Origin: Oscillospiraceae bacterium
GTDB taxonomy: Bacteria > Bacillota > Clostridia > Oscillospirales > Oscillospiraceae
DNA length: 38,530 nt
NCBI GenBank assembly: GCA_902790375.1
Contig: CADARY010000045.1
Span: forward strand, 1-38,530
Direction: 5' to 3'
In this document: positions 7,598 through 35,398 of the stretch, piece by piece
How positions within the stretch are numbered: position 1 is the first letter of the stretch
Layout of the letters: each line of letters opens with the position of its first letter
Notes under the pieces: generated by a model
What the model was told of the DNA's origin: nothing
Databases searched by the model: none
The model's input: only the letters and a program-made list of their open reading frames with translations
Translations under genes and position numbers: made by a program

Positions 7598-8428
7598 ATG
7601 AAAAGCAGGCTATCCAACGCGAAAAATCTGATCTGGGCAGCGGCGATTCTGATCTGCCTGCTGGCGCTGCTGCTGGGTCTGATCTTCTCCATGTCGCGCA
7701 AAAGCCAGGACAAACGGGAGGAGGGCACCATCGTGCTCGGCCAGATCGACAGGAACAGACAGGCGGCGGATACGTCCCTTGTCGGCCTTGACACGGCGAA
7801 CGCAAAGACGCTGATCCCCCTGCCGGAGAACAACAAGGGCAATCTGGAGAGCGTGTTCGGCATGACCTTCCTTTGCGACAAGACCATCCTGGGCCTGCGC
7901 AATTATGCCACCCAGTATGCCGACGGCCTCACCGCGCAGATCTGGACCGACAACGGCAGCGGCCTGCGGGCCAAGGACGCCGCAGAGTCCCCCATCGTGT
8001 TTGTGGACGGTTCGCTCATCCGCGCGGCCGACGGCGCCATGGTCACCCGGCCGAGAACGATGGTGCTCTATCTCGGCGGCGACGGGCTTGCCGAGACGAC
8101 GCAGCAGGAGTTCATCGACGGCTACACGCGCCTCATTGAAAGCATCCGCGAGGCCTCCCCCAACACGAAGGTCATTGTCTGCTCCATTGGCTCCATCAGC
8201 TCCAACTATCAGGGCGGGGACGGTCTGACCACCCAGCTCATCGCCAGCGCCAACGCCTGGATCCGGCAGGTCTGCGTCAACACCGGCGCCTACTATGCCG
8301 ATATCGCCTCCATCGTCAACGATGAATACGGCTATCTCTCCGACACCTTCCTCACCCCGGACGGGCGGAGCATCGCCGCGGCAGGCATCGCGCTGATCGT
8401 GGATTACTTCCGCTTCCATTATATTTAA
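7598..8428 (+). CDS. Membrane-anchored SGNH/GDSL-hydrolase-like protein
   Basis: A 276-aa protein with a single N-terminal membrane segment (residues 10-31, after basic residues), then an extracytoplasmic domain. The block FIDGYTRLIESIREASPNTKVIVCSIG resembles the strand-helix pattern of SGNH esterases acting on cell-surface carbohydrates, and the C-terminal LTPDGRSIAAAGI sits where the catalytic DxxH motif of that superfamily occurs. The His is replaced, and no clear GDS serine block is visible, so activity is doubtful. The start ATG follows GCGAGGG. The gene sits between the EF-G terminator and the metNIQ promoter and appears monocistronic. The family assignment is an inference from pattern only. 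Confidence 0.55.
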   Translation: MKSRLSNAKNLIWAAAILICLLALLLGLIFSMSRKSQDKREEGTIVLGQIDRNRQAADTSLVGLDTANAKTLIPLPENNKGNLESVFGMTFLCDKTILGLRNYATQYADGLTAQIWTDNGSGLRAKDAAESPIVFVDGSLIRAADGAMVTRPRTMVLYLGGDGLAETTQQEFIDGYTRLIESIREASPNTKVIVCSIGSISSNYQGGDGLTTQLIASANAWIRQVCVNTGAYYADIASIVNDEYGYLSDTFLTPDGRSIAAAGIALIVDYFRFHYI

Positions 8429-8526
8429 GGCAACACCTAATTTGCGCAGCCCGTGTTTTTCGGTTTTGTGCAATATCCTCAGCTTCGGAAAAACCTGCCG
8501 CGTCTGACATGGTAATGTTCACAATT

Positions 8527-8561
8527 CTGTCGCGCCCTGCTTGACAGTCGGGGCGCGACAG
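8527..8561. promoter_or_regulatory. 11-bp inverted repeat straddling the metNIQ -35 box (possible operator)
   Basis: Arms CTGTCGCGCCC (8527-8537) and GGGCGCGACAG (8551-8561) are perfect complements around a 13-nt centre that contains the -35 hexamer. The right arm lies in the spacer. A bound dimer here would block RNA polymerase. The regulator is unknown. Confidence 0.5.
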
Positions 8562-8570
8562 GTCTATAAT
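8541..8570 (+). promoter_or_regulatory. Sigma-A promoter of the metNIQ leader
   Basis: A perfect TTGACA (8541-8546), an 18-nt spacer and a perfect TATAAT (8565-8570), the strongest promoter match in the window. Transcription should start near 8577, about 26 nt before the leader peptide ATG. Confidence 0.9.
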
Positions 8571-8602
8571 GCACGCATACTCAAGGAAGGGGCACAGTCA
8601 CC

Positions 8603-8707
8603 ATGCGTCGTTTCGATACCGCCAACTGCATGATGATGGAGATGTACATGTGCGGCATGTGCAAGATGATGCGCGCTCAAAACTCTCCATGTTCTCTTTC
8701 TGTTTGA
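8603..8707 (+). CDS. Met/Cys-rich leader peptide (34 aa) upstream of metNIQ
   Basis: A small ORF with ATG at 8603 and TGA at 8705-8707, behind a good ribosome site (GGAAGGGG at 8586-8593, about 9 nt away) and a strong promoter. It contains 9 Met and 4 Cys in 34 residues; the core reads CMMMEMYMCGMCKMM at residues 9-23. It is followed by an intrinsic terminator at 8728-8763 and then the methionine importer. This order (promoter, regulatory-amino-acid-rich peptide, terminator, cognate genes) is that of ribosome-mediated attenuators such as trpL or hisL. Slow decoding of Met (or Cys) codons would alter RNA folding and let transcription reach metN. A protein function such as metal binding by the Met/Cys cluster is the alternative. 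Confidence 0.75.
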   Translation: MRRFDTANCMMMEMYMCGMCKMMRAQNSPCSLSV

Positions 8708-8727
8708 TTGCATACACGCGTTTCAAT

Positions 8728-8772
8728 CAGGTTCGGAAAACGATGGGAGTTTTTCCGGACCTGTTTTTGTTT
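8728..8772 (+). terminator. Attenuator terminator between the leader peptide and metN
   Basis: A 13-bp stem (8728-8740 with 8751-8763, one G-U pair), a 10-nt loop, then TTTTTGTTTC. It lies after the peptide stop and 54 nt before the metN start. A competing pairing is visible: 8679-8690 (AAAACTCTCCAT) with 8743-8753 (ATGGGAGTTTT), 11 bp with one bulged U. It takes the loop and the top of the terminator 3' arm. A weaker hairpin, 8705-8710 with 8724-8729, includes the peptide stop codon. Confidence 0.78.
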
Positions 8773-8816
8773 CACACCATCGCTTATTTGGAGATATGAG
8801 AGGATAGAATGAATAG

Positions 8817-9806
8817 ATGATTGAGATAAAGAATCTTTGCAAGACCTATTCTTCCGCCTCCGGAAATGTGGAAGCGCTGCGCGACATCAACCTCACGATC
8901 GAGGACGGGGAGATCTTCGGCATCATCGGCCTGTCCGGCGCCGGCAAGAGCACCCTGGTGCGCTGCATCAACCTTCTGGAGCGGCCGACCTCCGGCAGCG
9001 TCATCATCGACGGGCAGGATATCACCGTCCTCCCCCGGCCGGAGCTTTTGAAAATGCGCCGCAGCATTTCGATGATCTTTCAGGGCTTCAATCTGCTCGA
9101 GCAGCGCAGCGTCCTGCGCAATGTCACCTTCCCGCTGGAGATTTCCGGGGTGAAGGGACAGGCAGCAAAGCTGAAGGCCATGGAGCTCCTGAAGGTCGTC
9201 GGTCTCGAGGAGAAGGCGGCGGCCTATCCCGCTCAGCTCTCCGGCGGACAGAAGCAGCGCGTCGCCATTGCGCGCGCCCTCGCCTCCGATCCGCGCTACC
9301 TGCTGTGTGACGAGGCGACCTCGGCTCTCGACCCGAACACCACCCGTTCCATTCTGGAGCTGCTGCGCAGCATCAATGAGAAGATGGGCGTGACGATCAT
9401 CGTCATCACCCATGAGATGAAGGTCATCGACCAGATCTGTGACCGGGTGGCCGTCATCGACCAGAGCCGCATCGCGGAATCCGGCAGGGTGAGCGATGTG
9501 TTTGCCAATCCCCAGTCCCAGATTGCCCGCGAGCTGATCCTCCCGCAGGACCGCACCGCCATTGAGACCAGCGGCGGCAAGAAGATCCGCATCATCTTCG
9601 ACGGCATGCAGTCCAAGGAGCCGGTCATCTCCAACATGACGCTCGACTGCCAGGTGCCGGTCAACATCATGTTCGCCGACACAAAGGACTTTGACGGCAT
9701 CGTCTACGGCCATATGATCATCGAGCTGCCCACCGATGCGCACCAGGCCGAGAAGGTCATCGCCTGGCTTAAAAACAGCGACGTCAAGTGGAAGGAGGAA
9801 GACTGA
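8817..9806 (+). CDS. metN: Methionine ABC importer ATP-binding protein MetN
   Basis: The ATPase of the MetNIQ methionine importer. Walker A is GLSGAGKST (38-46), the signature is LSGGQKQR, and Walker B is LLCDEATSALD. The C-terminal 80 residues form the NIL (ACT-like) domain that binds intracellular methionine and inhibits transport in this family. Length 329 aa is normal. The start overlaps a minimal ORF, ATGAATAGATGA at 8809-8820; the GAGAGGA site at 8798-8804 is 4 nt from that ATG and 12 nt from the metN ATG, an unusual arrangement that might couple initiation. The stop overlaps the metI start by one base. Confidence 0.95.
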   Translation: MIEIKNLCKTYSSASGNVEALRDINLTIEDGEIFGIIGLSGAGKSTLVRCINLLERPTSGSVIIDGQDITVLPRPELLKMRRSISMIFQGFNLLEQRSVLRNVTFPLEISGVKGQAAKLKAMELLKVVGLEEKAAAYPAQLSGGQKQRVAIARALASDPRYLLCDEATSALDPNTTRSILELLRSINEKMGVTIIVITHEMKVIDQICDRVAVIDQSRIAESGRVSDVFANPQSQIARELILPQDRTAIETSGGKKIRIIFDGMQSKEPVISNMTLDCQVPVNIMFADTKDFDGIVYGHMIIELPTDAHQAEKVIAWLKNSDVKWKEED

Positions 9807-10486
9807 TGCTCTCCGAAACCTTTTACAAGCTCTGGAATGCCGGCATCCTGCAGCGCGGCGTCTGGGAGACGATCTACATGACCGTCATTTCCACGGCGAT
9901 CTCCTATGTGATCGGACTGCCGCTCGGCGTGGTGCTGAATATCACGGACCGGGAGGGCATTTATCCCATCCCCTGGTTCAACCGTCTGCTCGGCATGATC
10001 GTCAATTTTTTCCGTTCGATTCCCTTTATTATCCTGATGGTTGCCATGCTTCCCGTGGCAAACTTTATTGTAGGCACCTCGCTCGGCAACAAGGCCATGA
10101 TCGTCATGCTGGTCATCGCGGCCTCGCCCTACATTGCGCGCATGGTGGAATCCTCCCTCAAGGAGGTCAACGCCGGCGTCATTGAGGCGGCCCAGTCCAT
10201 GGGGGCCAACAATTTCCAGATCGTGACCAAGGTCCTGCTGCCGGAGGCCAAGCCCTCGCTCATCATGGGCGCCGTGATCTCCATGGTGACGATCCTCGGC
10301 TACTCGGCCATGTCCGCCACCATCGGCGGCACCGGCCTCGGTCAGATTGCCATCAGCTACGGCCACCAGCGCTTCAATCCCGATATCAAGTGGATCTGTG
10401 TATTTCTGACTGTAATAATCGTTCAGATTATTCAGGAGGTGGGGACTGCCGTTGCGCACCGCACCGATAAACGCATCACCAAGTAA
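9806..10486 (+). CDS. metI: Methionine ABC importer permease MetI
   Basis: A 226-aa integral membrane permease with five to six hydrophobic segments. The EAA loop that docks onto the ATPase is visible (EVNAGVIEAAQSMGANNFQI). I chose the ATG at 9806, which overlaps the metN TGA and follows AAGGAGGAA, over the upstream in-frame ATG at 9788. It forms the membrane channel of MetNIQ between metN and metQ, with metQ starting 25 bp after its stop. Confidence 0.94.
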   Translation: MLSETFYKLWNAGILQRGVWETIYMTVISTAISYVIGLPLGVVLNITDREGIYPIPWFNRLLGMIVNFFRSIPFIILMVAMLPVANFIVGTSLGNKAMIVMLVIAASPYIARMVESSLKEVNAGVIEAAQSMGANNFQIVTKVLLPEAKPSLIMGAVISMVTILGYSAMSATIGGTGLGQIAISYGHQRFNPDIKWICVFLTVIIVQIIQEVGTAVAHRTDKRITK

Positions 10487-10511: not shown

Positions 10512-11432
10512 ATGAACATGAAAAGAAATCTCGCTTTGATCCTTGTCCTGGCGCTTGTAGTCCTGAGCCTGAGCGCCTGCGGAGGCTCCTCCTCCGCGCC
10601 CGCCGCCACCGCAGCCCCCACGGAAGCGCCCGCCACCGAGGCTCCCGCTGCCACCGAGGCTCCCGCCGCCACCGAGGCTCCCGCCGCTTCCGAGCCCGTA
10701 AAGCTCGTTGTCGGCGCAAGCTCCACCCCCCACGGCGAGCTGCTTGAGATCGTCAAGCCCGTTCTCGCCCAGCAGAACATCGACCTCGAAATCGTCATTT
10801 ACGACGACTACGTGCTGCCCAACACCGCTCTGCAGGACGGCACCCTGGACGCCAACTACTTCCAGCATGCCCCCTATATGAACAGCTTCAACGCCTCCAA
10901 TGGCACGGATCTCGTCTCTGCCGGTCTTGTCCACTATGAGCCCATGGGCATCTACAGCTCCAGCCTCAAGGATCTCAAGGACCTGGCTGCCGGCGCCACC
11001 ATCCTCGTGCCCGATGACGAGTCCAACCAGACCCGCGCCCTGCTCCTGCTGCAGCAGGAGGGCCTGATCGTCCTGCCCGAGGGCGCCTCCGTTGACACCG
11101 CCCCCTCCGTGCTCGACATCAAGGACGCCAAGGGCTACAATGTCCAGGCCGCCCAGGCCGACGCTGTTCCCTCCCTGCTGGCCAACAGCGCTGAGGGCAC
11201 CATTGCCGTCATCAACTACAACTACGCTCTGAACGCCGGCTTCAAGACCACCGACGCTCTGGCCATCGAGGACGCCTCCGGCAACGCCGCCCAGACCTAC
11301 GCAAACCTCGTGGCCGTCCGCCGCGGTGACGAGTCCCGTCCCGAGATCGTCGCCCTGGTCAAGGCCCTGCAGGACGGCGCAGTCGATACCTTCAACGCCA
11401 ACACCGGCGCCGGCATCGTCTCCATCAAGTAA
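10512..11432 (+). CDS. metQ: Methionine-binding lipoprotein MetQ (NlpA family)
   Basis: A 306-aa substrate-binding lipoprotein. The start ATG (MNMKRN) follows AAAGGAG; an upstream in-frame ATG at 10452 overlaps metI and lacks this site. The signal peptide ends in the lipobox LSAC with Cys23 as the lipid-modified residue. A flexible Ala/Pro/Thr linker with repeated TEAPAA units (about residues 30-52) follows, then the NlpA fold (ASSTPHGELLEIVKPVL and NYFQHAPYMNSFN, typical of MetQ). It is the last gene of the operon and is closed by a terminator. The specificity (L- or D-Met) cannot be told from sequence. Confidence 0.94.
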   Translation: MNMKRNLALILVLALVVLSLSACGGSSSAPAATAAPTEAPATEAPAATEAPAATEAPAASEPVKLVVGASSTPHGELLEIVKPVLAQQNIDLEIVIYDDYVLPNTALQDGTLDANYFQHAPYMNSFNASNGTDLVSAGLVHYEPMGIYSSSLKDLKDLAAGATILVPDDESNQTRALLLLQQEGLIVLPEGASVDTAPSVLDIKDAKGYNVQAAQADAVPSLLANSAEGTIAVINYNYALNAGFKTTDALAIEDASGNAAQTYANLVAVRRGDESRPEIVALVKALQDGAVDTFNANTGAGIVSIK

Positions 11433-23550: not shown

Positions 23551-24819
23551 TTAGCCCAAATAAATAGCCCCCTCCGCTGCTTTGAAGCTTGCAATCTTCG
23601 CATCAGAGGTTGCTTCATTGTAGACATTCATCGTAGTACGGATATTTTTGTGTCCCATGACTTCCTGGATAATCTTGGTATTTGTCTCGATCTCACACAT
23701 CCGTGTGCAAAAGGTATGACGAAGAATGTGTGCGCTGATCTTCGGGATCAGGCATGGCTCTCGCTTTTCCTTCTCAGCGCGCATAGCCTCTTCCTTATTA
23801 TAATCAGCAACGATGATTTGGATTTTATCGAAGATCCCCGCCGGCGTGTACACCTTGCCGTTTGCATTCAGAAAGATGAATCCGGTATAACCGTCAACAA
23901 CAAAGGGTTCCCAATCAGGATTCTTTTTCTTGCGCTTCTCTTTCAGGAGTGCTTTTTTTACATCTTGAAACATTGGGATAATACGATTCCCCGAGATTGT
24001 CTTCGGTTTGCCGATTCGATAGGCATATCCGCCAGCTTCTGTATCCTTATAGATCAGAGTGTGATTCACAAGAATGATATCTTTCTTAAAATCCACATCA
24101 GACCATCGCAAGCCAAGACACTCTCCGATACGAAGGCCGGTTCCGAGCAGCACGGTAAACAAACTTGAGTATCGTTTATACTGGTTGCTGTTATTGATAT
24201 AATCAATAAACCGTCTTTGCTGTTCAAGCGTCAGAGCGTGACGTTGTTGGGGTTCTTCCCCGAGCTTCTTGCTGATAGTCTTCATAACGCCGTCTGCCGG
24301 ATTGCGCCGAATGATCTCATCAAGAACAGCATTTTGAAGTGATTGCCAAATAATGGAGTGTATGGCACGAAGCGTGCTGATTCTGAGGCCCTTATCCTTG
24401 TTCAACCCCAGATAAAACTTTTGGATGTCAGTGTACTTCAGTTTATCAAGGGTACACTTACCGATGCTCTCCCGCACATGCGTATTATATAAGCACAGGT
24501 AGTTGCAGCGCGTGGTCTCTTTCAGATCTGTACGGAGCTCCATAAGAGAGTCGAAGAGATCATTCAACTTATACTCTGAGGCCGAATTAGGTCTGATACC
24601 ATCCTTGAGGTCTTTTTCGATGGCAGCAATCATCGTCCGAAGCGCCGGGCCATTTTTAACACCTGATGGGATCTTATCCGTTTCTACGAGTTTCCAGCTA
24701 TATACCGTCTGGCGTTCGCCGTAGGCGTCCGTATAACGGTACATATACTTTCCGTCTGCTCTTTGCACCTCCCCATTGCGCAATATACGACCTTTTGTGT
24801 CTCTGCGTTTATCTGCCAT
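23551..24819 (-). CDS. int: Tn916-type tyrosine recombinase/integrase
   Basis: A 422-aa site-specific recombinase that integrates and, with Xis, excises the element. The N-terminal arm-binding domain starts RRDTKGRILRNGEVQRADG, very like Tn916 Int. A core-binding domain (residues 80-180) and a catalytic domain follow, with Arg in GTGLRIGECLGLRW, HILRHTFCTRM (HxxR), GHKNIRTTMNVY (His and the nucleophile Tyr). I chose ATG 24819, behind AAAGGAGAT, over 24864. It lies at the element end with xis 87 bp upstream. Confidence 0.95.
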   Translation of the reverse strand: MADKRRDTKGRILRNGEVQRADGKYMYRYTDAYGERQTVYSWKLVETDKIPSGVKNGPALRTMIAAIEKDLKDGIRPNSASEYKLNDLFDSLMELRTDLKETTRCNYLCLYNTHVRESIGKCTLDKLKYTDIQKFYLGLNKDKGLRISTLRAIHSIIWQSLQNAVLDEIIRRNPADGVMKTISKKLGEEPQQRHALTLEQQRRFIDYINNSNQYKRYSSLFTVLLGTGLRIGECLGLRWSDVDFKKDIILVNHTLIYKDTEAGGYAYRIGKPKTISGNRIIPMFQDVKKALLKEKRKKKNPDWEPFVVDGYTGFIFLNANGKVYTPAGIFDKIQIIVADYNKEEAMRAEKEKREPCLIPKISAHILRHTFCTRMCEIETNTKIIQEVMGHKNIRTTMNVYNEATSDAKIASFKAAEGAIYLG

Positions 24820-24906
24820 AAGAATCTCCTTTCCGTAACACCATAGCGGAAAGGAACCTGACAAGTGATTTTATCATATTCATGGTTCCTTTGCAAGCAA
24901 TAGCTT

Positions 24907-25110
24907 TCAAATTACTGAACATTGGTCCAAATAATCTTCAAATAAGTGGCGCTTGATGAGCTTACGATTCCCATTGATCAGGATATAAGCCTCGTCCGGA
25001 TTTTGCTCCATAAGCCGCCGAAGCTTTGTCTCACCAATCTGGAAATACTGTGCTGCCTCTTCAACGGTCAGAAGATACTTTTCCCAAACAGGTAATTCTT
25101 CTCTTCTCAT
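24907..25110 (-). CDS. xis: Excisionase (Xis), Tn916 type
   Basis: A 67-aa winged-helix protein (YLLTVEEAAQYFQIGETKLRRLM), typical of recombination directionality factors that bend att DNA and direct Int to excise. The ATG follows GAAAGGAAAA. It is transcribed with int from the promoter and attenuator at 25154-25234. Confidence 0.9.
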   Translation of the reverse strand: MRREELPVWEKYLLTVEEAAQYFQIGETKLRRLMEQNPDEAYILINGNRKLIKRHLFEDYLDQCSVI

Positions 25111-25153
25111 ATTGTTTTCCTTTCGCGCCGCTCACAAACAAGGCAATAAAAAT

Positions 25154-25182
25154 GCTCTCTGGCACACAACGTACCGGAGAGC
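25154..25182 (-). terminator. Terminator/attenuator hairpin upstream of xis
   Basis: A 9-bp stem with one G-U pair (25154-25162 with 25174-25182), an 11-nt loop and, on the minus strand, the tail ATTTTTATT. It lies only about 15 nt downstream of the predicted start site of the xis promoter, so it could attenuate xis-int as well as stop readthrough from the upstream operon. Confidence 0.7.
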
Positions 25183-25204
25183 TTCTATCAATTCTGGCAG
25201 TATA

Positions 25205-25234
25205 ATGATACCACCTGAAAACCTTTGAAGTCAA
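25205..25234 (-). promoter_or_regulatory. Promoter of xis-int
   Basis: On the minus strand TTGACT (25234-25229), an 18-nt spacer and TATCAT (25210-25205). The predicted start is near 25198, just before the hairpin. Confidence 0.7.
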
Positions 25235-25304
25235 TACACTCTTCCGTGCGTAATCGTGCGGTATTTGTGCTGTTTTTTGTTGTAGATTGTGTGAGTATTC
25301 ACTC

Positions 25305-25793
25305 CTAGTTCGGTTCATTTATGAAATCATACATTTCGACGAGCTTGTCAATTCCCTCATCGCGTAATTTGCGGATGCTCCAAACGGAGGAAGCCATTGC
25401 CTCTGCCGCTTCACTCAAAGATCTTTGTTTGAAGAACAACAGCCCTAAGACCGTCTTCTCGTTTTCCGATAAAAAAGACAGGTAATATTCAATTCTGGAT
25501 GCCTCCTGCTCCAGCGGAATGAGACGGCTTATGATTTCCCTTGACCTTTCACTGTTTGCAGTATCAGCCGCACATTGATAATTCATAGCTATATACAATG
25601 TCCGATTAGATACCGCGCCAGAGTTATGGCCTGTCCCGTCGCCTTTTGCAAAACACATAGCTTCCAGCATGTCCTCCGCTGAGACTGGTTTTTGGTTTTC
25701 AAGCTCAAATCGTAGAAGTTTTATCCTCTGCTTTATCTTGGGATATTCATACAGCTTTTGAATAACTCTCTCTTTAGCGTCTTCCATGCCCAT
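25305..25793 (-). CDS. Sigma-70 region 4-like regulator of the element
   Basis: A 162-aa protein. Residues about 105-155 (LSENEKTVLGLLFFKQRSLSEAAEAM, then SSVWSIRKLRDEGIDKL) form a helix-turn-helix of sigma region 4 type; the N-terminal part (IKQRIKLLRFELENQK) is helical. Small sigma-like or ArpU-like proteins of this size control transcription of late or transfer genes in elements of Firmicutes. The promoter targets are not known. The first ATG of two close ones is kept because it has GAAGGGG at about 10 nt. It is the last gene before the xis-int unit and reads in the same direction. Confidence 0.6.
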   Translation of the reverse strand: MGMEDAKERVIQKLYEYPKIKQRIKLLRFELENQKPVSAEDMLEAMCFAKGDGTGHNSGAVSNRTLYIAMNYQCAADTANSERSREIISRLIPLEQEASRIEYYLSFLSENEKTVLGLLFFKQRSLSEAAEAMASSVWSIRKLRDEGIDKLVEMYDFINEPN

Positions 25794-25866
25794 AAAATAT
25801 CGCCCCTTCTTTCTTTATATAGCAAAGGCTCTTGGCTGTCATAGACCGAGGTATTTCTTTGCTCGC

Positions 25867-25902
25867 CGACATATTACTGCAATCTAATTGCAAATAATGT
25901 CG
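25867..25902. promoter_or_regulatory. Imperfect 16-bp dyad (possible operator)
   Basis: The arms CGACAT...TGCAAT and ATTGCA...ATGTCG surround a CTA centre and have one small offset. It lies 74 bp upstream of the sigma-like gene in a 265-bp gap. It could be an operator for this gene or a weak hairpin in readthrough RNA. No T-tract follows. Confidence 0.35.
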
Positions 25903-26014
25903 AAATAGTTACAGCCTATTCTTCTTTTTTCTTCTTTTTTCGGGAAAATAGCCAGTATGGGCTGGGCAGCTGAAGAAACCATAGTAATCATTTCCATACG
26001 CTGTTTATATAGAG

Positions 26015-26050
26015 CGCCCCTGCCGCGCTCGTGAGAACGCAACAGGGGCG
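26015..26050 (-). terminator. Hairpin at the end of the long operon
   Basis: An 8-bp GC stem (26015-26022 with 26043-26050) lies 9 nt after the stop of the gene ending at 26059. The minus-strand tail is CTCTATATAAAC rather than a clean T-run, so it may only slow polymerase or protect the RNA end. Confidence 0.45.
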
Positions 26051-26058
26051 AAAATCAT

Positions 26059-27033
26059 TTATGCTGCTCTTTGAAAGCGGATGCCGCTTGCGCGGAGGGA
26101 CAGCTCCTGCGACAGGAGCTTGAGGGACTCAAATTCCTCATCCAGTCCGTCCAGCTCACGGCGGAGCACCTGCTCATAGTGGCGTTTCTTCCCCTCCAGG
26201 GCGCTGATCTTCATGACCCAGCGCTCCATGATGGCAGGGCTTTGGCTGCCGCTCTTGATGAGATAGTCCGCGCGCTCCTGGTATTCCGCGATCTCCTTCT
26301 TCACCGCGGCGTAGAATTCCTCGGTCATCTTATCCCGCTGCTTGGCATCATCTATTATATAGATGGAGTTTGCCATGAGGCGGGATTTTGTCTTGCTGAG
26401 GCTGCTCAGAGCCTCCATGAAGTCCTCGAAGATATCCACCTTCTCCATACTGTGCCGGGGGACGAAATAAAGATGTCCGTTGACACTCATTTTCGTTGCC
26501 TCCAGGCTGCGGACAAAATTGAGGCAGATGGTCTCGATCTGCTTGCGGTTTGCGCAGGTCTGATACAGTTCGAACAGCTCCTCGGCACGGCGGCAGTAGG
26601 CAGCCGCGTCCACATCGCTGTCATAGGCCAGATTGTCATAGCTGAACAGCCCGCTTTCCTTGTCGAAGCTGATGTTCGCCAACTTCTCATACTGGTTGGT
26701 CTCCCGGTTCAGCGTCTCCTTGACCAGCTCTCTGGACAGGACACGGGCGGTGTGCTCGTTGTCCCGGCAGTAGACCCGGTAGATCTGCTGCTGTCCGAAA
26801 TTCTTGACGACGATACGGTCCTTGATGTCCCCGGTGGCGCTTTTGAAGGCGTCGGAGACAGAAACACGGCGGTCTCCCGCGTAATAGATGCCCATTCCGG
26901 CGCACAGCTCCGCCAGCTTCTCTTTGTCGATCAGCAGATCGGACAGAGAAAAATACAGGAGCTTGCCCAGCATATTGTTCTTGTCGCCGGACGCCACGCC
27001 CAGCATATCGTTCATGGAAATAACGTCGCTCAT
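26059..27033 (-). CDS. Element protein of unknown function (DUF6744-like)
   Basis: A 324-aa soluble protein. I do not recognise a catalytic motif. The N-terminal third is alpha/beta, with a strand-rich stretch around KNFGQQQIYRVYCRD; the middle has NGHLYFVPRHSMEKVDIFEDFMEAL; the C-terminus (260-324) is a predicted coiled coil. It resembles proteins I associate with integrative elements of Clostridia annotated as DUF6744, but this cannot be confirmed here. ATG 27033, with GGAGG 8 nt upstream, is preferred to the TTG at 27039. It is the last gene of the main operon and ends in Ala-Ala. Confidence 0.5.
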   Translation of the reverse strand: MSDVISMNDMLGVASGDKNNMLGKLLYFSLSDLLIDKEKLAELCAGMGIYYAGDRRVSVSDAFKSATGDIKDRIVVKNFGQQQIYRVYCRDNEHTARVLSRELVKETLNRETNQYEKLANISFDKESGLFSYDNLAYDSDVDAAAYCRRAEELFELYQTCANRKQIETICLNFVRSLEATKMSVNGHLYFVPRHSMEKVDIFEDFMEALSSLSKTKSRLMANSIYIIDDAKQRDKMTEEFYAAVKKEIAEYQERADYLIKSGSQSPAIMERWVMKISALEGKKRHYEQVLRRELDGLDEEFESLKLLSQELSLRASGIRFQRAA

Positions 27034-27046
27034 GTTCAAAACCTCC

Positions 27047-27286
27047 TCACCAGTTTCTCAATACTTCATCCAGCTTGTCATAGCGCCCCTGGCTCAGCAG
27101 GCCGCACTCATAGTGAAAGTTGATGTCTGTCAGCCGGTATTCAATGGCTTCCATGGTATGGCGGTCGCCTCTTTTCCGCGCGGCCTCATGCCTGCGAAAC
27201 AGGCTCTGCATGAGGGTGGGGGTCAGGCAATACTCGTTTCTGCGGTTGATCGCCTGAATGCGTTCACATTCTCTTTCTGTAAGCAT
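27047..27286 (-). CDS. Small hypothetical element protein
   Basis: A 79-aa helical protein (MLTERECERIQAINRRNEY at the start). The start is the ATG behind AAAGGAG at the expected distance; the longer ORF in this frame overlaps the primase gene and is rejected. It lies between the primase and the DUF6744-like gene, with gaps of about 10 bp. No family was recognised; the helix-rich, charged sequence could be a DNA-binding accessory. Confidence 0.65.
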   Translation of the reverse strand: MLTERECERIQAINRRNEYCLTPTLMQSLFRRHEAARKRGDRHTMEAIEYRLTDINFHYECGLLSQGRYDKLDEVLRNW

Positions 27287-27296
27287 ACTTTCTCCT

Positions 27297-28358
27297 TTAC
27301 GCCGCGGCGCGGGCATGGTAATAATCGTCCACACCCTTGTACACCGGGCTCCATACGTATTTGGAATACTTGATGTTCGAAAGGTGTCCGACCTCTTTAT
27401 GGATCGCAAGGATCGCGTTTCGGACATGGGGATTTGTGGTCTGATCCATGTCCATGGCTTCCACCAGCTCTGTGACGCCGAGATCCAGCACAGTCTCTTT
27501 CAGGCCGTGGATGGCGTTGACGCCGCCAATGCAGACAAAGAGCGCATCATTGTCAAGAAAGCTGGCCACGTCGCCCTTGAGCGGTCCTTCCGTCAGATAT
27601 GCCCGTTTGTTTGCCGTGTTCCCGGTCACATGAATCCAGGAATAACTGCGTGTGCCATTGGGCATATCCCGGCTGGAGAGCCAGCGATACTTTCTCCCCG
27701 GATCAGCCTCATCGTCGAGGCGGATCTTCAAGCCCTGGATCAAACCTTCCTTATTCCGTACCGGGATCAGAAAACCACTCGGTCCGGCTATCGTCCACTC
27801 GCCATAGCGGGTACGAAATCCGGGAATGCCGCTCAGATCACAGCCGCAGCTTCTGAGCAGGTCTGCCAAAAGCCTGCGGCCTTTTTCCGTCTCCGGCATG
27901 GAACGGTACTGGTTTCGCTCGATCCGTTCCTCCGACAGTCCCCGTCCGATAAGATTTTCTTTGTGTCGGTCTGAGAGTGTCAACAAATCCAGCATAGTGG
28001 AATAAACTTCGCTGCGCTCCGAAAGCTTGCGGGGCGCTGCCTCTGTATATTGGGAGTCGGGTTTTTTCGGCATGGGATAGACATTGCCGCCCTCTTCCAG
28101 CTCCTGAAATGCCTCCCTGTTGCTCAGTCGCATCACGCGGGCATACAGTGTGACGCTGTTGCCCTGCGCGCCGCATAAGACGCAGCGGTACTGATCGGTA
28201 GAGGTGTTCAGGAAGAGATGATATTTTCCCGCACCGTGGTCACCGCAGAAGGGGCAGCTCGCCTCAACCTCGCCCCTGGTAAGAGTACGAGGATTGAGGA
28301 CAAGCCCGCACCTGTGAGCCGTGTCTACGATGGGGATTTTCTTGTAGTCACGGCCCAT
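27297..28358 (-). CDS. CHC2-type zinc finger primase with TOPRIM-like (DUF3854-like) domain
   Basis: A 353-aa DnaG-type primase-like protein. The zinc ribbon (CPFC...CVLC, residues 35-63) matches the CHC2 class that recognises template, and from about residue 175 there is a TOPRIM-like region (YLTEGPLKGDVASFL, a Glu-x-Gly motif with the following Asp). It would make RNA primers for element replication or lagging-strand synthesis. It is shorter than cellular DnaG and lacks a helicase-binding domain. It is followed by a small gene and preceded by the SbcC-like gene with a 12-bp gap. It ends in Ala-Ala-Ala. Confidence 0.8.
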   Translation of the reverse strand: MGRDYKKIPIVDTAHRCGLVLNPRTLTRGEVEASCPFCGDHGAGKYHLFLNTSTDQYRCVLCGAQGNSVTLYARVMRLSNREAFQELEEGGNVYPMPKKPDSQYTEAAPRKLSERSEVYSTMLDLLTLSDRHKENLIGRGLSEERIERNQYRSMPETEKGRRLLADLLRSCGCDLSGIPGFRTRYGEWTIAGPSGFLIPVRNKEGLIQGLKIRLDDEADPGRKYRWLSSRDMPNGTRSYSWIHVTGNTANKRAYLTEGPLKGDVASFLDNDALFVCIGGVNAIHGLKETVLDLGVTELVEAMDMDQTTNPHVRNAILAIHKEVGHLSNIKYSKYVWSPVYKGVDDYYHARAAA

Positions 28359-28370
28359 GGGCGCCGCACC

Positions 28371-30233
28371 TTACGCTGCGATCGGCATTTCTGTCACGAT
28401 GGGTTTGATGGGACGGACATTCAGCTCCGAGCGGCTGACACATTTGGCCATGAGCACCTGCCCCGTGGGACGGACGTTGTTCAGGTCGTCGACCGACTCC
28501 ATGTTATCCACGAAGACAGGGTAGTTGCGCCCGGTCAGACGCTTCATAAGCTCAGATACCTCCATGCCCGCCCGGATCTTCTCCGAGAGGGAGAGTCGGT
28601 CATAGCGCCTGCCGTTATACTCAAAGCGGAACACATCCTTCACCTCGCCCGTGCTTTTCACTACGTCATAGAGGGAGATGGACACCCTGTTCATCTTGAG
28701 TTCTGCAAGCGTGAGCTCCACGCGCTTAGCGATGAAAAGGAGCAGGCAGCTGACAGATCCTTTGAGTTCAGTGATCTTTTCCTGCGCTGCCTTGATCTTA
28801 GTCTCGATCTCAGCCTCATCGGGAAGCGCCGCGCTCTGTAAAGCGGAAAGCTCCGCTTCAAGCTGATGGATTTCCTCGCCGCAGGCTTTCAGGCGATCGT
28901 ATTCCTCCGAGCTAAGCTTTCCATACTCCAGATCGGAGGTGAGTGTCTGCATCCTGCAGCGAAGCTCTTCCAGCTGCGCTCTTTTCTGCGCGGAGGCGCC
29001 GCGGCTGCTGTCCAGGAGTCTTCCGCGCTTTTCTGTCAGTTCACGGACATCCAGCTGGAGCTTTGCCACGTCCTCCTCCTTGAATTTCTCGAATGTGGTC
29101 TGGGATTCCGCGTCCATCGCTTTCAGCTCCTCCAATTGGGCGCGCTGCTCCTTGCCCTCGGCAACGATGCCGCTGATGCTCTCCTGGAAAGCTTTGCGAA
29201 CGATGGGCACGTCAGTTTCGGTGACAGCGCGGCGGCAGGTGGGGCAGACAAAGCCGGGAACAATGGCCTTGCCCGCGCTGAGCTCCGCGTTGTATTTTGC
29301 CGCGAGTGCCTTTACTCGTCCGGACGCATTCGCGAGTGCCTGTGTAAATTTGGATTCATAGGCGCTTGCGGAACGCGCCGCCAGCTTCTGTGTCTGCTCA
29401 TAGAGCTGCTTGTCCAGCTCATCCAGTCCACTGTCGTCACTGTCGTCGTTGAACAGCTCGCTGTACTGCGCGCTCAGATGGGTGAGTTCGCTTTCCAGTT
29501 CCTCCTTGTCTATGCCCGCATAGCGCTTTGTTTCCAGCGCAGACTTTTCGTTCATCAGCGCTTCACGCTTTGCCTCAAGCTCCGCGCGTTTACTGTTGCC
29601 GTTGGTTTTCTGCGACTGGATCAGATCCTGTTGCCCCTGCAAATAGATCACGGTGCTTTCTAGCTCCCGGATGTCCTTGCGAAGCTGCTTGACGCGGCCT
29701 TCCGGGGATAAAAGCGTCTCTGCGGGCAGCTTTTCCCGGATGGGTTCTGCCAATTCCGCGAGGACTTTTTCCTGCGGGATCAACGGGAGATAACGCTGCA
29801 GGAGATTCTTCCCCTCATCGCCCAGCTCTTCAATAAAGTACAGGGGATTGAAGATGGAGAGAAACACGTCCTTTTCGCCGAACATCTCCGTCAGATCGAG
29901 CTGGCGAAGCTCCTGACCGTCGTAGACGATGCCGGTTCTGCTGCCCTTATGGCTGCGTGTCAGCTCATGGGCCGTGCCCTTGTCATCCACAAAACGCAGG
30001 GTGACAAAAAGCTCCGGATCGGTCTCGCTGTGCAGGCGGTCGATGTTGCGCTCGGCAAAGAACGGGAGTCCTGTAACGGCGTAGGCGATGGCGTCCGCGA
30101 TACTGGTTTTGCCGCGGCCGTTGCCGCCGGTGATGACCGTGGGATTGCCGAAGGTCAGCTCCGTGGGCTGCGCAAAAGACTTGAAGCCCGCAAGACGCAT
30201 GCCCGTGATCTGAAAACCGCTTATCTTTTCCAT
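28371..30233 (-). CDS. SbcC/SMC-like AAA ATPase with zinc hook
   Basis: A 620-aa protein. The head begins MRLAGFKSFAQPTELTFG, with Walker A GGNGRGKTS. Two coiled-coil arms flank a CPTC hook (CPTCRR, near residue 340), which dimerises through zinc in Rad50/SbcC. The C-terminal half-head has LSLSEKIRAGMEVSELM in the signature position and YPVFVDNMES as Walker B, where Asn replaces the usual catalytic Glu. It probably acts with the neighbouring Rad52-like gene in DNA recombination. No SbcD-type nuclease gene is adjacent. RBS AAAGGAGAT. It ends in Ala-Ala. Confidence 0.8.
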   Translation of the reverse strand: MEKISGFQITGMRLAGFKSFAQPTELTFGNPTVITGGNGRGKTSIADAIAYAVTGLPFFAERNIDRLHSETDPELFVTLRFVDDKGTAHELTRSHKGSRTGIVYDGQELRQLDLTEMFGEKDVFLSIFNPLYFIEELGDEGKNLLQRYLPLIPQEKVLAELAEPIREKLPAETLLSPEGRVKQLRKDIRELESTVIYLQGQQDLIQSQKTNGNSKRAELEAKREALMNEKSALETKRYAGIDKEELESELTHLSAQYSELFNDDSDDSGLDELDKQLYEQTQKLAARSASAYESKFTQALANASGRVKALAAKYNAELSAGKAIVPGFVCPTCRRAVTETDVPIVRKAFQESISGIVAEGKEQRAQLEELKAMDAESQTTFEKFKEEDVAKLQLDVRELTEKRGRLLDSSRGASAQKRAQLEELRCRMQTLTSDLEYGKLSSEEYDRLKACGEEIHQLEAELSALQSAALPDEAEIETKIKAAQEKITELKGSVSCLLLFIAKRVELTLAELKMNRVSISLYDVVKSTGEVKDVFRFEYNGRRYDRLSLSEKIRAGMEVSELMKRLTGRNYPVFVDNMESVDDLNNVRPTGQVLMAKCVSRSELNVRPIKPIVTEMPIAA

Positions 30234-30250
30234 TTGATCTCCTTTCCCGC

Positions 30251-31198
30251 TTACGCGGCCTCTTCCAGAATTTCAAAGCTCTCCAGATAGTAGAAGGTGA
30301 CGGAATCCTGCTGCTTCAAGGTCTTGCGGACATGGAAGAGCCTGGCGTCACGACAGAGCTCAGGATGCGTCCCTCGCATGAAAGCGAGGCACTTTTTCCC
30401 TTCAGGGTTCTGGAGCATAAGGTTGGTATACTCCCCGTTCATGCCCTTCTGCACCTTCACGTCGGTGACGATGTACTCCCAAGCTGGAGTCTCCGGTGCC
30501 TTTCGGTACTGCGCCAGATCCACGACCTTGCCGCCCGGTTCCCTGTCTTTCTCGGGTTCCTGCCGTTGCTGTGGTGGTTCTGACTGCCTGGGCTTTTCCG
30601 CAGGCTTCTCAGGCTGAGGCACGTCAGGCTTTTCGATGCTGCCCGGTGCCCTTTGTGGTGTGAGCAAAGACTGCACCCCACAGGGCGCCGCTGCCGTCAG
30701 CTTGAACTTTGTCAGCATGTTCAGATAGGCCTTGTCCAGCTTGGCACGCTCCGAGGGCTTGATGATGTAGCTCTTGCCCTTCTTCTCAATGTTCACATAG
30801 ACCGTATCCATGTTGTACAGGACGCGGCCGATGCCCCATTGGACCGCAGCGCGCTTCATGGAGTCGCTCAGACCGCCCTTGACCGGTTCAATATCCGAGT
30901 CCTCGGCTCCGTCCCATTTGGTGATGAATCCGCGGCCCTCGAAATAGATGGAGATGCCGCAGATCTGGGCCTCCCGCTTACCGGTGCCGTGCCAGGGCTT
31001 GTACTCGTTGTACCAGTTCTGCGGCCCCACCACTTCATCCAGACGGTTCTGGATGGCGCGGTTAGTCACATACGGCACCGCGATGCCCTGCATACTGCTC
31101 TCAAAAGCGGTTTGAAGTCTCCATTCCAGATCCTCCGCGGCAAAAGGCATGGCCAGCGCCGCCTGGATTTCATTCGTCGTCTTCATTGTCTGTTCCAT
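30251..31198 (-). CDS. Rad52/Rad22-like single-strand annealing protein
   Basis: A 315-aa protein. Residues 10-165 have the Rad52 core: RLDEVVGPQNWYNEY, then GISIYFEGRG and the KRAAVQWGIGRVLYN block. Proteins like this anneal complementary ssDNA in phage and element recombination. A Pro/Glu-rich linker (about 180-225) leads to a small C-terminal beta domain, which may bind ssDNA or a partner. It lies directly upstream of the SbcC-like ATPase, and its start overlaps the E2-like gene's stop by 29 bp. It ends in Glu-Glu-Ala-Ala. Confidence 0.82.
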   Translation of the reverse strand: MEQTMKTTNEIQAALAMPFAAEDLEWRLQTAFESSMQGIAVPYVTNRAIQNRLDEVVGPQNWYNEYKPWHGTGKREAQICGISIYFEGRGFITKWDGAEDSDIEPVKGGLSDSMKRAAVQWGIGRVLYNMDTVYVNIEKKGKSYIIKPSERAKLDKAYLNMLTKFKLTAAAPCGVQSLLTPQRAPGSIEKPDVPQPEKPAEKPRQSEPPQQRQEPEKDREPGGKVVDLAQYRKAPETPAWEYIVTDVKVQKGMNGEYTNLMLQNPEGKKCLAFMRGTHPELCRDARLFHVRKTLKQQDSVTFYYLESFEILEEAA

Positions 31199-31883
31199 TC
31201 AAGCCTCCAATAAAGTCTGCCAGCGTCTTTCCGTTCGGGATCAGGATATCCGTATAGTAATACGCCGGGTCCTTGTCCTTCAAATGCTCCATCAGTTCCT
31301 TATGCCCCAGCTTGAGCTTGTTGCGCTCGGCTGAGTACATATCGTCGTTATCCGGGATGCCCAGCAGATAGCGCGGAAAATTTACAAGCGCCGTCTGTTT
31401 TTTGTAACGCGGCAGCACATTGTTCCCCGTGCATACGCGGGAATCCTCATAGACGTTGGAGAAGGGATAGCGGTACATGACAGAGCTTGGCGACGGCTTT
31501 TCGTCGGCCATGACGCCGAGCGTGCAGCCGGCCACCCTGCCGGTATCCAGGACCCGAATGCCGAACACAAGACGCGGGATCGGGAAGTTGGGGTATTCCG
31601 TTTCTCTGTAGGTCATGTCTGCCTTGAGCTCCGGGTTCCAGAGGATAAAGGTTTTCTCCCCTTTGCCGATGGAGACAGACAGACAGTGCTCCGGCAGAAG
31701 ACCGGAATCCACAACTTCATTGCTTCTATAGCTCTCGTTCAACATAAAATACAGGTCGATGGGCGAAATCTCCTTGAAGGATATCGCGCCGTCGCGCTTG
31801 AGTTCCTCCACAATGATCTTTCCCGAATTGGGAGAGATACGGAGGCGAATGTCATTGCTGTAATCGGTGTTTTCCGCCGCCAT
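31170..31883 (-). CDS. E2-like protein of the Prok-E2_D / PRTRC-B type
   Basis: A 237-aa protein. The block PIPRLVFGIRVL ... YRYPFSNVYEDSRVCTGNN matches the PRTRC-B/Prok-E2_D signature: the stretch of Pro, Asn, Val, Tyr and the Cys (Cys151) that corresponds to the E2 active-site thiol. In ubiquitin-like pathways an E2 accepts a modifier from an E1. Here a ThiF/E1-like gene and a JAB peptidase lie four to six genes upstream in the same operon. The start codon overlaps the previous stop (TAATG), and the end overlaps the Rad52-like gene. Whether the Cys is active is untested; PRTRC systems remain uncharacterised biochemically. Confidence 0.72.
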   Translation of the reverse strand: MAAENTDYSNDIRLRISPNSGKIIVEELKRDGAISFKEISPIDLYFMLNESYRSNEVVDSGLLPEHCLSVSIGKGEKTFILWNPELKADMTYRETEYPNFPIPRLVFGIRVLDTGRVAGCTLGVMADEKPSPSSVMYRYPFSNVYEDSRVCTGNNVLPRYKKQTALVNFPRYLLGIPDNDDMYSAERNKLKLGHKELMEHLKDKDPAYYYTDILIPNGKTLADFIGGLNGTDNEDDE

Positions 31884-32446
31884 TACGCAGCCTCCTCCAT
31901 ATGTTTCTGCGGCAGAGAAACGATCTTGCCTGAGCGTTTCTCTATGATCTGGTTCATACGATCAACTTCCCGGTAAAGGTAGTGCATCAGATCTGTGAAT
32001 GCCATCACCACACCGGCGGGCTCATAGTATCCTTCCGCAAATTCTACCTGTATCTGCGGGCTGCTGTCGTTATAGTGGATTGTCACATCAAAGATGCCGC
32101 AATTGCGGTCGGCCAGGAAAAAGGTGACCACATCCTCAAATCTCCTTCTGGCAGCCTGTACGGAACAAAGATGCAAGTCGGAAAGCTTTACGCTGAGATC
32201 GAGATATTCATCAAAAACGCTGTCGTAAATATACAGGATCTCCGAACCGCTCATTTCATCATAGTCCGAGTAGCAGTCGTCAAAGATTTCTTCCATGGAA
32301 TAATAGAGAAACTCCAGAACCTCCTCAACGGAAAACGCAGTCTCTCCGGAGACAAGGTGCGCTGCCCGATGAGGCCTGTACATCTGCACAAAACGAAGCA
32401 GTCTCAGCACGCCGAGAACGTCATATTCATAATCGCTGTCGTACAT
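31883..32446 (-). CDS. Hypothetical acidic element protein
   Basis: A 187-aa protein rich in Asp, Glu and Tyr (MYDSDYEYDVLG at the start; YDEMSGSEILYIYDSVFDEYLD in the middle). It has a mixed alpha/beta pattern and no motif I recognise. Conserved position between the 99-aa gene and the E2-like gene, with end-to-start overlap, suggests a role in the same module. No good ribosome site is seen before the ATG; translation may be coupled to the gene ending at 32456. It ends in Glu-Glu-Ala-Ala. Confidence 0.65.
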   Translation of the reverse strand: MYDSDYEYDVLGVLRLLRFVQMYRPHRAAHLVSGETAFSVEEVLEFLYYSMEEIFDDCYSDYDEMSGSEILYIYDSVFDEYLDLSVKLSDLHLCSVQAARRRFEDVVTFFLADRNCGIFDVTIHYNDSSPQIQVEFAEGYYEPAGVVMAFTDLMHYLYREVDRMNQIIEKRSGKIVSLPQKHMEEAA

Positions 32447-32455
32447 AGGCCGTCC

Positions 32456-32755
32456 TCAGAAAAACGCGCGCTTTTCCCGCGCCGAAGCCTGGATGAGCTT
32501 GAGCATCTTGTTGAACCCCTTCTGCCAGCTCTGCTCCATACTCCGGTAGTGATCGCCGGACCACATCATAGCAGTATGACACAGATCAAAGGCGTTAAGA
32601 TCGAGCTTTGTAAGATCGATCGTTTCGCCTTTCCCCAGCTTGTCAAAGACCTCCTTCTGCAGGTATTCGCTGTGCTGCGGCTCTTCGCAATACGGGATCG
32701 CCTCCGGGATTGCATGGAGAAGCTCTGTGAATGTCTCAGGGCTGAATTCAAGCAT
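32456..32755 (-). CDS. Small hypothetical element protein (99 aa)
   Basis: A 99-aa helical protein (MLEFSPETFTELLHAIPEA at the start; CHTAMMWSGDHYRSMEQ later). I chose the ATG at 32755, which overlaps the stop of the preceding frame at 32748-32750 and follows GGAGGCGG; the longer ORF upstream is in the wrong frame for the neighbouring gene. No family was recognised. Confidence 0.65.
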   Translation of the reverse strand: MLEFSPETFTELLHAIPEAIPYCEEPQHSEYLQKEVFDKLGKGETIDLTKLDLNAFDLCHTAMMWSGDHYRSMEQSWQKGFNKMLKLIQASAREKRAFF

Positions 32756-32912
32756 GTTCCGCCTCCAGTTCCACAACGCGCACGACGCAGATGGCGTAAT
32801 CCGCCACATGGCTGATGATGTGCTGCTCCTCGGCGTCCGAAATGAACGCCTTTTTCTGCTGTGTGTAGTAGATGCCGTAGTCCGGCAGCACGATGCCGCC
32901 CTCTGCCAGCAC
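32748..32912 (-). pseudogene. C-terminal remainder of the gene at 32916-33287 beyond an in-frame TGA
   Basis: Immediately after the TGA at 32916-32918, the same frame stays open for 54 more codons (from GTG 32912: VLAEGGIVLPDYGIYYTQQK and onward) and ends in overlap with the next gene. The join reads ...VLFHLA-stop-KVLAEGG, a natural helix if the stop were CGA (Arg). It may be a nonsense mutation, an error, or a separately initiated small protein (GTG). Confidence 0.55.
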
Positions 32913-32915
32913 CTT

Positions 32916-33287
32916 TCACGCAAGATGGAACAGAACCTGCTCGTTTTCGCTGTTGATGAAAATGGGGATCACATGCTCACCGGTGTCTGCTTTCTCGATC
33001 TCCTTGAACAGAAAACCCATATGAAAAGCCATCGCGTTCTGCTGCTTCTGCTGGGCTTCGGCCAGGAGATTCAGAAAGTTCAAGGGGTCTTCGATTCCCA
33101 ATACCACGCCGTAAGCATTTTTGATCTCGCTGTCCCAGGCCTTCTGTACCGGGAAGAAGCTCCCGTAGTACTTGCCCAGATACTTTGTGAGAAGATCGGT
33201 CACGACTCCCCACACATGTGTTTTGAGGCTGTCCGCGTTTTGCGTCTGATCGACCGGAACGACCACAGCCAGATTGCCGGATCTCAT
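32916..33287 (-). CDS. Hypothetical element protein, apparently truncated by TGA
   Basis: A 123-aa protein (MRSGNLAVVVPVDQTQNAD at the start). It has alpha/beta character and no recognised family. RBS AGGAGG lies 8 nt before the ATG. The frame is probably longer in its ancestor: translation would continue past TGA for 55 codons, giving about 178 aa. It sits between the methyltransferase (13 bp upstream) and the 99-aa gene. Confidence 0.65.
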   Translation of the reverse strand: MRSGNLAVVVPVDQTQNADSLKTHVWGVVTDLLTKYLGKYYGSFFPVQKAWDSEIKNAYGVVLGIEDPLNFLNLLAEAQQKQQNAMAFHMGFLFKEIEKADTGEHVIPIFINSENEQVLFHLA

Positions 33288-33299
33288 GTTTTGTACCTC

Positions 33300-34694: not shown

Positions 34695-34697
34695 AGC

Positions 34698-35381: not shown

Positions 35382-35398
35382 GATCCATGTCTTTCCTT

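Follow-up and report, generated by a model that had tools for sequence, protein, structure and literature searches.

The methionine genes of the Firmicutes are the territory of S-box and T-box RNAs. Transcription attenuators that respond to a stalled ribosome have a classical geometry, in which the antiterminator forms on the 5′ arm of the terminator.

In Lactococcus lactis, a Met T-box lies before a methionine ABC transporter (PMC7058034). Attenuation by leader peptides has also been described in the Firmicutes, as for Rli60 of Listeria (PMC5864092) and for His leaders (PMC2965389, PMC9413887), the accounts in these sources dealing with His and Ile/Leu/Val cases. For the sulfur amino acids, uORFC-8-2 of Rhodobacterales is described as a cysteine leader upstream of cysS (PMC8632094), and MetL of Streptomyces lividans, a Met/Cys-containing leader (MSTTSDRTPATEATTTPGARCMCRRMCAF) before metNIQ, is proposed to be a methionine attenuator (PMC8079986).

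Here, we analyse a leader upstream of metNIQ in the genome of an Oscillospiraceae bacterium; the whole stretch of DNA that was analysed, 38,530 nt in length, is referred to as the window. Judged from sequence comparison, this leader is very probably a ribosome-mediated transcription attenuator of metNIQ that reads the supply of charged Met-tRNA, and its antiterminator would act by capturing the apex of the terminator.

A Met-rich leader ORF and an intrinsic terminator upstream of metNIQ

The promoter, leader and operon are all on the plus strand, at the following positions of the window.

8541–8570, plus strand: sigma-70-type promoter, TTGACA-18 nt-TATAAT
near 8577, plus strand: presumed transcription start
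8584–8593, plus strand: Shine-Dalgarno-like AAGGAAGGGG, a modest match read from the sequence
8603–8707, plus strand: leader ORF of 34 codons and a stop, translated as MRRFDTANCMMMEMYMCGMCKMMRAQNSPCSLSV
8627–8671, plus strand: regulatory codon cluster CMMMEMYMCGMCKMM, holding the Met columns M11, M14, M16 and M19 of the genus alignment
8636–8645, plus strand: region 1, AUGGAGAUGU, within the Met cluster and able to pair with region 2 (8682–8690)
8679–8693, plus strand: region 2, AAAACUCUCCAUGUU, the proposed antiterminator strand, beginning 8 nt past the last Met codon
8728–8763, plus strand: intrinsic terminator hairpin
8739–8753, plus strand: terminator apex (the loop with the upper part of each arm), the target of region 2 in pairing tests
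8764–8772, plus strand: U-rich tract TTTTTGTTT after the terminator hairpin
8817–9806, plus strand: metN, ATPase of a methionine ABC transporter (TIGR02314 as best NCBIfam match, at E 1.4e-109 and under the curated cut-off)
9788–10486, plus strand: metI, permease (PRK10782 MetI as best NCBIfam match, its 210.9 bits falling short of the cut-off of 212)
10512–11432, plus strand: metQ, substrate-binding lipoprotein (best NCBIfam match MetQ, E 1.3e-35, below the cut-off)

Most of what the original prediction had described at this locus stood up to re-examination. The promoter, called perfect, matches the consensus at 12/12 positions, where shuffles of the 701-base region held a mean of 0.5 promoter-like sites (≥9/12); translation of the ORF returned the nine Met and four Cys codons; and the terminator lies 20 nt past the stop, with a hairpin of −18.0 kcal/mol and a U-rich tract. 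For the downstream genes, which had been assigned to metNIQ, the best NCBIfam matches are to MetN, MetI and MetQ, but all three scores fall below the curated cut-offs, and methionine is therefore the presumed substrate of the transporter. The start of metQ was chosen by eye as the ATG of MNMKRNLALILVLALVVLSLSACGG; the list of ORFs begins this frame at 10452.

The leader is present once in the host genome (a 3.1 Mb assembly), and an Rfam scan of the window found no T-box (RF00230), SAM riboswitch or known riboregulator at its position. A simple terminator scanner missed the 8728–8763 hairpin (0 found), and folding of the whole leader gave no gain over shuffles (z −1.04), so the case for an attenuator does not rest on bulk folding energy.

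With a promoter and a terminator to itself, the ORF could be read as encoding an ordinary small protein in a separate transcription unit, metNIQ being regulated elsewhere. We consider this extremely improbable: the ORF matched no Pfam or NCBIfam family at E≤0.1, the terminator stands 53 nt before metN, a consensus scan of 8300–9000 listed no second promoter, and the locus-specific match between region 2 and the terminator apex described below would have no role.

Elsewhere in the window, a match to group II intron D1-D4-3 lies at 58–227 on the minus strand (E 4.2e-29), and an ORF at 37881–38381 is transposase-like by eye. In the list of ORFs, an integrase-like frame (23551–24864, minus strand) is followed by many minus-strand frames up to 37600, again judged by eye, which suggests that 23551–37600 is an integrated mobile element.

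Conservation of the leader within the genus

A census of the genus found metN at E≤1e-80 in 75/101 genomes, at 76 places, and the upstream DNA of 70 genus metN loci (30 from a first set and 40 fetched) was examined. A Met-rich short ORF followed by a terminator was present upstream of metN in 48 of the 70, as detected by a spaced-Met pattern that Met-poor versions would escape. That relatives should share the ORF with its Met codons had been proposed as a check when the locus was first annotated; this Met-pattern search found that they do, and it is mainly because 48 leaders occur in the same genus that a chance origin of the window leader is excluded.

In the peptide alignment of these leaders, four columns (M11, M14, M16 and M19) are Met in 48/48, given a search pattern that required spaced Met; a fifth Met column is occupied in 47/48 and four further ones in 79–94%. 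Each leader has 7–12 Met. The residues beside the Met columns vary (E/G/A, Y/C/R/H, C/F/M, G/R/S/C/N), and the differences in core length are whole codons. The Ala codon that follows the core is GCG in 22, GCC in 21, GCT in three and GCA in two of the 48 leaders; this use of all four GCN codons, together with the whole-codon length changes, is as expected for a translated ORF. Between close pairs of leaders there were 65 synonymous against 275 nonsynonymous substitutions, and because synonymous changes are not dominant, the peptide outside the Met positions appears to be under little protein constraint.

These observations bear on whether the peptide itself could be the sensor, with a Met/Cys-rich nascent chain arresting in the exit tunnel in response to free Met, SAM, a metal or thiol stress, independently of tRNA charging. 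Met/Cys-rich peptides can bind copper, and conservation extends in part to residues other than Met (RAQK behind the core, M-[YCR]-M and MC). Against nascent-peptide arrest, the spacing and neighbours of the Met residues differ between lineages, the tail after the core overlaps region 2 so that its conservation is expected from RNA pairing, the Ala codon within that tail is free to take any GCN form, and sister loci use a tRNA-reading T-box. We therefore regard arrest as very unlikely, and attenuation by codon reading as the preferred explanation.

A terminator-like hairpin was called downstream of the ORF in 48/48 genus leaders. In a coarser scan, the real genus sequences averaged −14.2 kcal/mol and 27/48 were at or below −12 kcal/mol, a value reached by 0/144 mononucleotide shuffles in the same scan. 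Across the 48 sequences, 91.3% of the cells of the terminator helix are paired, 12 of its 14 pairs change on both sides, and 0/500 shuffles equalled any covariation measure. Of the distinct leaders that precede a met gene, 60 in number, all but one were followed by a terminator-like hairpin (59/60), and that of the exception (L147) was found in another analysis.

Complementarity between region 2 and the terminator apex

At the window, AAAACUC (8679–8685) can pair with GAGUUUU (8747–8753) and CCAU (8687–8690) with AUGG (8743–8746). The alternative pairing of 8679–8690 with 8743–8753 is therefore present where it was originally placed, and it extends by three more pairs, GUU (8691–8693) with AAC (8739–8741). 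The duplex has a predicted energy of −12.7 kcal/mol (p 0.02 against 100 shuffles). The earlier worry that it takes only three bases of the terminator can be set aside, as the match is locus-specific and covers the loop and the tops of both arms. Antiterminator and terminator share bases, from which we infer that the two are mutually exclusive.

Throughout the genus set, region 2 is a stretch of about 15 nt complementary to the apex, from the upper 5′ arm across the loop into the upper 3′ arm, and its pairing begins 12–17 nt past the Met cluster in 39/48 leaders. The sequences differ between loci while the match is kept, as in L198, L201 and L203 (GACUCGC-C-UUGUUU with AAACAA-A-GUGAGUU) and in L214, L215 and L217 (GGUUCG-C-CAUGUUU with AAGCAUG-CGAGCU). 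Against dinucleotide shuffles of region 2, the genus leaders gave a mean z of −2.22, with p≤0.05 in 28/48 and no individual significance in the other 20/48; among 53 other leaders, 17 reached p≤0.05.

Region 2 was also tested by partner swaps. For 35 distinct loops, a region 2 paired with its own apex at −12.50 kcal/mol and with swapped ones at −9.47 kcal/mol (0/5000 permutations), and for 44 others the values were −9.73 and −6.82 kcal/mol (0/5000). Swaps of the apex within the genus gave −12.12 against −9.44 kcal/mol (0/3000 permutations), and still 0/3000 for 16 representatives of less than 70% identity, the apex having been chosen as target after looking, by narrowing from the loop plus 3′ arm, and these later swap tests having used the same loci. 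The broader target, loop plus whole 3′ arm, had shown no enrichment (0/58 leaders at p<0.05). An early guess, a pairing of UUUCUG at the stop with CGGAAA, was dropped.

On the alignment, 80.4% of the cells of the region 2–apex helix are paired, compared with 74.6% in shuffles and at most 48.9% in slid versions, where the counted structure is drawn from one alignment row (L201) and related sequences are counted many times. Its covariation score was 0.286 against 0.203 in shuffles (0/500); two of the five measures, the counts of double-change pairs and of pair types, are no higher than in shuffles. Covariation in both hairpins had been named as a check on the attenuator, and correlated changes were found in the terminator helix and in the region 2–apex helix alike. 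The apex signal extends to 48 other leaders (z −9.6), which also have some 5′ arm signal (z −3.4), and L066 and L067 show loop complementarity of 9–11 consecutive pairs.

A 5′ arm antiterminator was the first geometry tried, and was weak in the lineage of the window. The possibility that region 2 pairs in the classical way with the 5′ arm, the apex match being secondary, draws on several results: the 5′ arm duplex beats shuffles (p<0.05) in 12/58 leaders; it is strong in the metY leaders of Kapaibacterium and Ignavibacteria (z −3.4 to −5.6) and in L131 and L144; metQ/metY-type leaders are 5′ arm-specific in swaps (z −3.4); and when the ribosome stands on the last Met, upstream sequence occupies the 5′ arm at 0.68 against 0.51 in shuffles (p≤0.05 in 18/59). 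In the genus set, however, the trp-type arrangement, in which the antiterminator takes the 5′ arm, was not found: basal arms do not pair better with their own partners than with swapped ones, the basal 5′ arm value being reached by 2981/3000 permutations. At the window the arrangement is weak, with p 0.865 for the 5′ arm duplex and p 0.18 for occupancy. The classical geometry thus seems quite improbable, and capture of the apex is the reading that we pursue here.

Modelled folding states and proposed mechanism

Folding was modelled with about 30 nt masked by the ribosome, at the stage at which five bases of the 3′ arm have been made. Across 48 leaders, modelled region 2–apex pairing averaged 0.45 with the ribosome on the last Met, 0.36 with it on the first Met, 0.32 without a ribosome and 0.04 with the ribosome at the stop; it was higher for the last-Met ribosome than for the stop ribosome in 43/48. 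At the window locus, the values were 0.29 on the last Met and 0.83 on the first. A ribosome at the end of the ORF would thus hide region 2 and allow termination, and one held on the Met codons would leave region 2 free. Once the hairpin is complete and at equilibrium, the terminator wins in every ribosome state (about 0.95), so the switch would have to be kinetic, acting through capture during transcription. A long pseudoknot containing both pairings is unlikely, because there is no linker between the apex duplex and the 3′ arm.

A further pairing is possible upstream, between the Met-codon stretch at 8636–8645 and 8682–8690 (−12.5 kcal/mol); in a broad test that included upstream sequence, own partners paired better than swapped ones (0/5000). 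It is plausible that this stretch serves as region 1 of the attenuator. The model gives a first-Met ribosome 0.36 against 0.32 for none (higher in 29/48), so that the stalled and the ribosome-free state are nearly alike and a protecting role of region 1 is at best tentative.

Our data are consistent with a model in which translation of the leader, stalling of the ribosome and kinetic capture would together set the polarity of the switch. When Met is plentiful, the ribosome would pass the Met cluster and cover region 2 over the last codons, and the terminator would form. When Met is scarce, the ribosome would stall on the cluster and leave region 2 free to pair with the loop and the tops of both arms before the 3′ arm of the terminator is complete; the apex duplex would then block zipping of the hairpin, and metNIQ would be transcribed.

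Replacement by Met T-boxes

The leader is lacking at 22 of the examined genus metN loci, and at 12 of these an Rfam T-box occupies the same place, with ten scores above the gathering score and two that miss it by 0.9 and 4.0 bits. The 12 alignments all have GAA-C-AUG-G, with the Met codon AUG at what we take to be the specifier column of the T-box. Leader and Met T-box, both predicted to read the charging of tRNA-Met, replace each other before metN.

One of the remaining ten loci (L213) is cut by a contig end. In five (L248–L252) a gene that is metQ-like by eye lies directly before metN, in L228 and L234 another reading frame is directly upstream, and L226 and L230 have neither of these. Among the nine of these ten that were read, a degenerate leader was seen in L230 only. 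This locus keeps the promoter, a short ORF starting MRNNRHSYMLM (MRNNRHSYMLMPG) and a terminator-like hairpin, its Met cluster seems to be mostly gone, and it would be a natural deletion of the sensor.

The host genome has one SAM riboswitch, upstream of a gene named metK by eye. It also has seven matches to the T-box at E≤0.001, of which three exceed the gathering score.

Distribution beyond the genus

A DNA motif, M-M-x-M-[YC]-M...M-C, was drawn from the first leaders found (five seed loci) and used to scan 84,980 species genomes. It matched at least 119 stretches, and the matches listed comprise 46 long ORFs and 73 short ones. The 46 long ORFs among the matches listed, from Paenibacillus and others, are not leaders; the Paenibacillus matches (L075, L079, L080 and others) are a conserved small protein of about 75–100 residues that is extremely Met-rich (MCMEEMMCKMKSMKMMM). 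Among the matches listed, 55/73 short ORFs lie no more than 700 nt before metN, metQ or metY (50/68 when the five seed loci are excluded), 15 are not before these genes and three are too near an edge. One of the 15, L069, precedes metA, a homoserine O-acetyltransferase by NCBIfam. These counts are partly dependent, as L168 and L119 are repeats of L232 and L129, respectively, and the five seed loci are among the 55.

By lineage, 47 of these 55 listed loci are in Bacillota, nearly all of them Clostridia, with one in the Erysipelotrichaceae (L173). The other eight listed are all before metY: Kapaibacterium (L076, L132 and L161), Ignavibacteria (L094 and L122), two further Bacteroidota, Christiangramia (L066) and Saprospiraceae (L067), and an Anaerolineaceae MAG (L131). 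At L131, MetY shares 82% identity with a clostridial MetY, and because this locus may reflect transfer or a binning error, occurrence in Chloroflexota is not counted as established. MetY scored above the NCBIfam cut-off at L064, L131 and L076.

In the Kapaibacterium and Ignavibacteria loci (L094, L132, L122, L076 and L161), peptides with MMQMCMMMCC precede metY, together with a strong classical 5′ arm antiterminator. A metX-like gene lies further downstream in four of the five, and L122 ends too early. This Met/Cys attenuator is apparently of independent origin.

Profile searches gave a patchy picture. Across the class, the leader was found in 4/391 sampled genomes, the three besides the host all having it before metY, and from this we take the element to be scattered. 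A search of the order returned 23/394 genomes at E≤0.1, six of which, the host included, have a leader and then a met gene, and one of the family returned 54/300 at E≤1, with leaders confirmed at L001–L005 and seven further loci inspected; the weak hits in both were mostly noise.

Some of these loci have additional features. On one contig, two metY genes each have their own Met leader (L181 and L184). A CGAATG element (mostly CGAATGTG) lies between the leader terminator and metQ or metY in 30/47 such loci, including L004, L041, L046, L112, L172 and L181; in several it encodes an Arg-Met close to the C-terminus of a further short ORF such as MENYFEKLVRANFRFGRM. The element was not seen in the metNIQ type of the window, with its terminator–metN gap of only about 53 nt. 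In a proteobacterial MAG, L136:874–906 encodes MITFNAISRPVSDAMPDMMSMCMCMCMCCHSETTRA and is followed by frames that by eye are JAMM-like, rhodanese-like, metY-like and metX-like; MITFNAISRPVSDAMPDMMSMCMCMCMCCHSETTRA could be a Cys/Met leader far upstream.

Methionine or cysteine as the signal

The original prediction left the signal as Met-tRNA or Cys-tRNA. MetY uses sulfide and stands near cysteine synthesis, and Cys codons are frequent in the leaders, with a mean of 3.0 per genus leader and 4.6 in metY-type leaders, and Cys in one core column in 43/48 genus leaders. These codons speak for a switch for sulfur amino acids in general, in which shortage of either charged tRNA would stall the ribosome and Cys would be at least as important as Met. 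Against it, 5/48 genus leaders, detected by a pattern without a Cys requirement, and one metQ-type leader have 0–1 Cys. Over 102 leaders, with at least one repeat, there are 7–12 Met and 0–7 Cys, six leaders having 0–1 Cys; the floor of seven Met is partly circular, because the leaders were found by Met patterns. Since low-Cys leaders exist and the T-boxes found in place of the leader are Met-specific, Met is favoured as the main signal. A general sulfur switch is, in our estimate, rather doubtful; Met is the likelier main signal, and Cys is possibly auxiliary.

Discussion

A conserved Met-rich ORF, two pairings with correlated changes, an association with met genes and replacement by Met T-boxes can all be read directly from the aligned loci. 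On balance, we think it somewhat probable that they mark a widespread class of Met attenuators, present in Bacillota before metNIQ, metQ, metY and perhaps metA and, apparently independently, before metY in Bacteroidota and their relatives, in which most Bacillota members and two from Bacteroidota would capture the loop and so prevent nucleation of the terminator, and which has been exchanged with Met T-boxes in one genus.

A recurrent Met-codon attenuator in the Firmicutes would provide a simple, testable case in which two sensors of tRNA-Met charging, unrelated to each other, swap before one gene. Because AUG is decoded by the initiator as well as the elongator tRNA, it also raises the question of how such a codon can act as a signal. 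The proposed apex-capture geometry would also be missed by searches built on 5′ arm pairing; we found no recognised report of an antiterminator that captures the terminator apex in the open PMC literature.

Ribosome-stalling Met peptides were originally described as a non-standard device in the Firmicutes. No report of a Met attenuator there was found in the open PMC literature, but the proposed metNIQ leader of S. lividans is a precedent elsewhere (PMC8079986). MetL and the window leader are both Met/Cys leaders before metNIQ. As presented in the part of that source concerned with it, MetL, from Actinobacteria, differs in having a leaderless start, three Met codons and no typical Rho-independent terminator; that part offers no comparative or structural support, and our comparison with MetL is by its published peptide (PMC8079986). 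The uORFC-8-2 of Rhodobacterales is likewise a uORF with codons for a sulfur amino acid and a terminator behind it, and differs, in the description available, in having a Cys pair only, a position before cysS and a host among the Alphaproteobacteria.

The SAM riboswitch (S-box), which controls methionine genes in Firmicutes, here precedes metK and not metNIQ. A Met T-box is closer in function: as portrayed for L. lactis, it senses tRNA-Met charging and acts by termination before the same kind of importer, with a polarity presumed equal, but it binds uncharged tRNA directly, without a translated leader.

With the trp/his/ilv-type attenuators, as outlined in the sources cited above, the window leader has in common regulatory codons, a terminator, an alternative pairing and a place before genes of the same pathway: its sequence holds clustered Met codons (9/34), an intrinsic terminator and a predicted antiterminator pairing beyond the codons. 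It differs from that type in its amino acid, Met, and in an antiterminator that would target the terminator apex instead of the 5′ arm.
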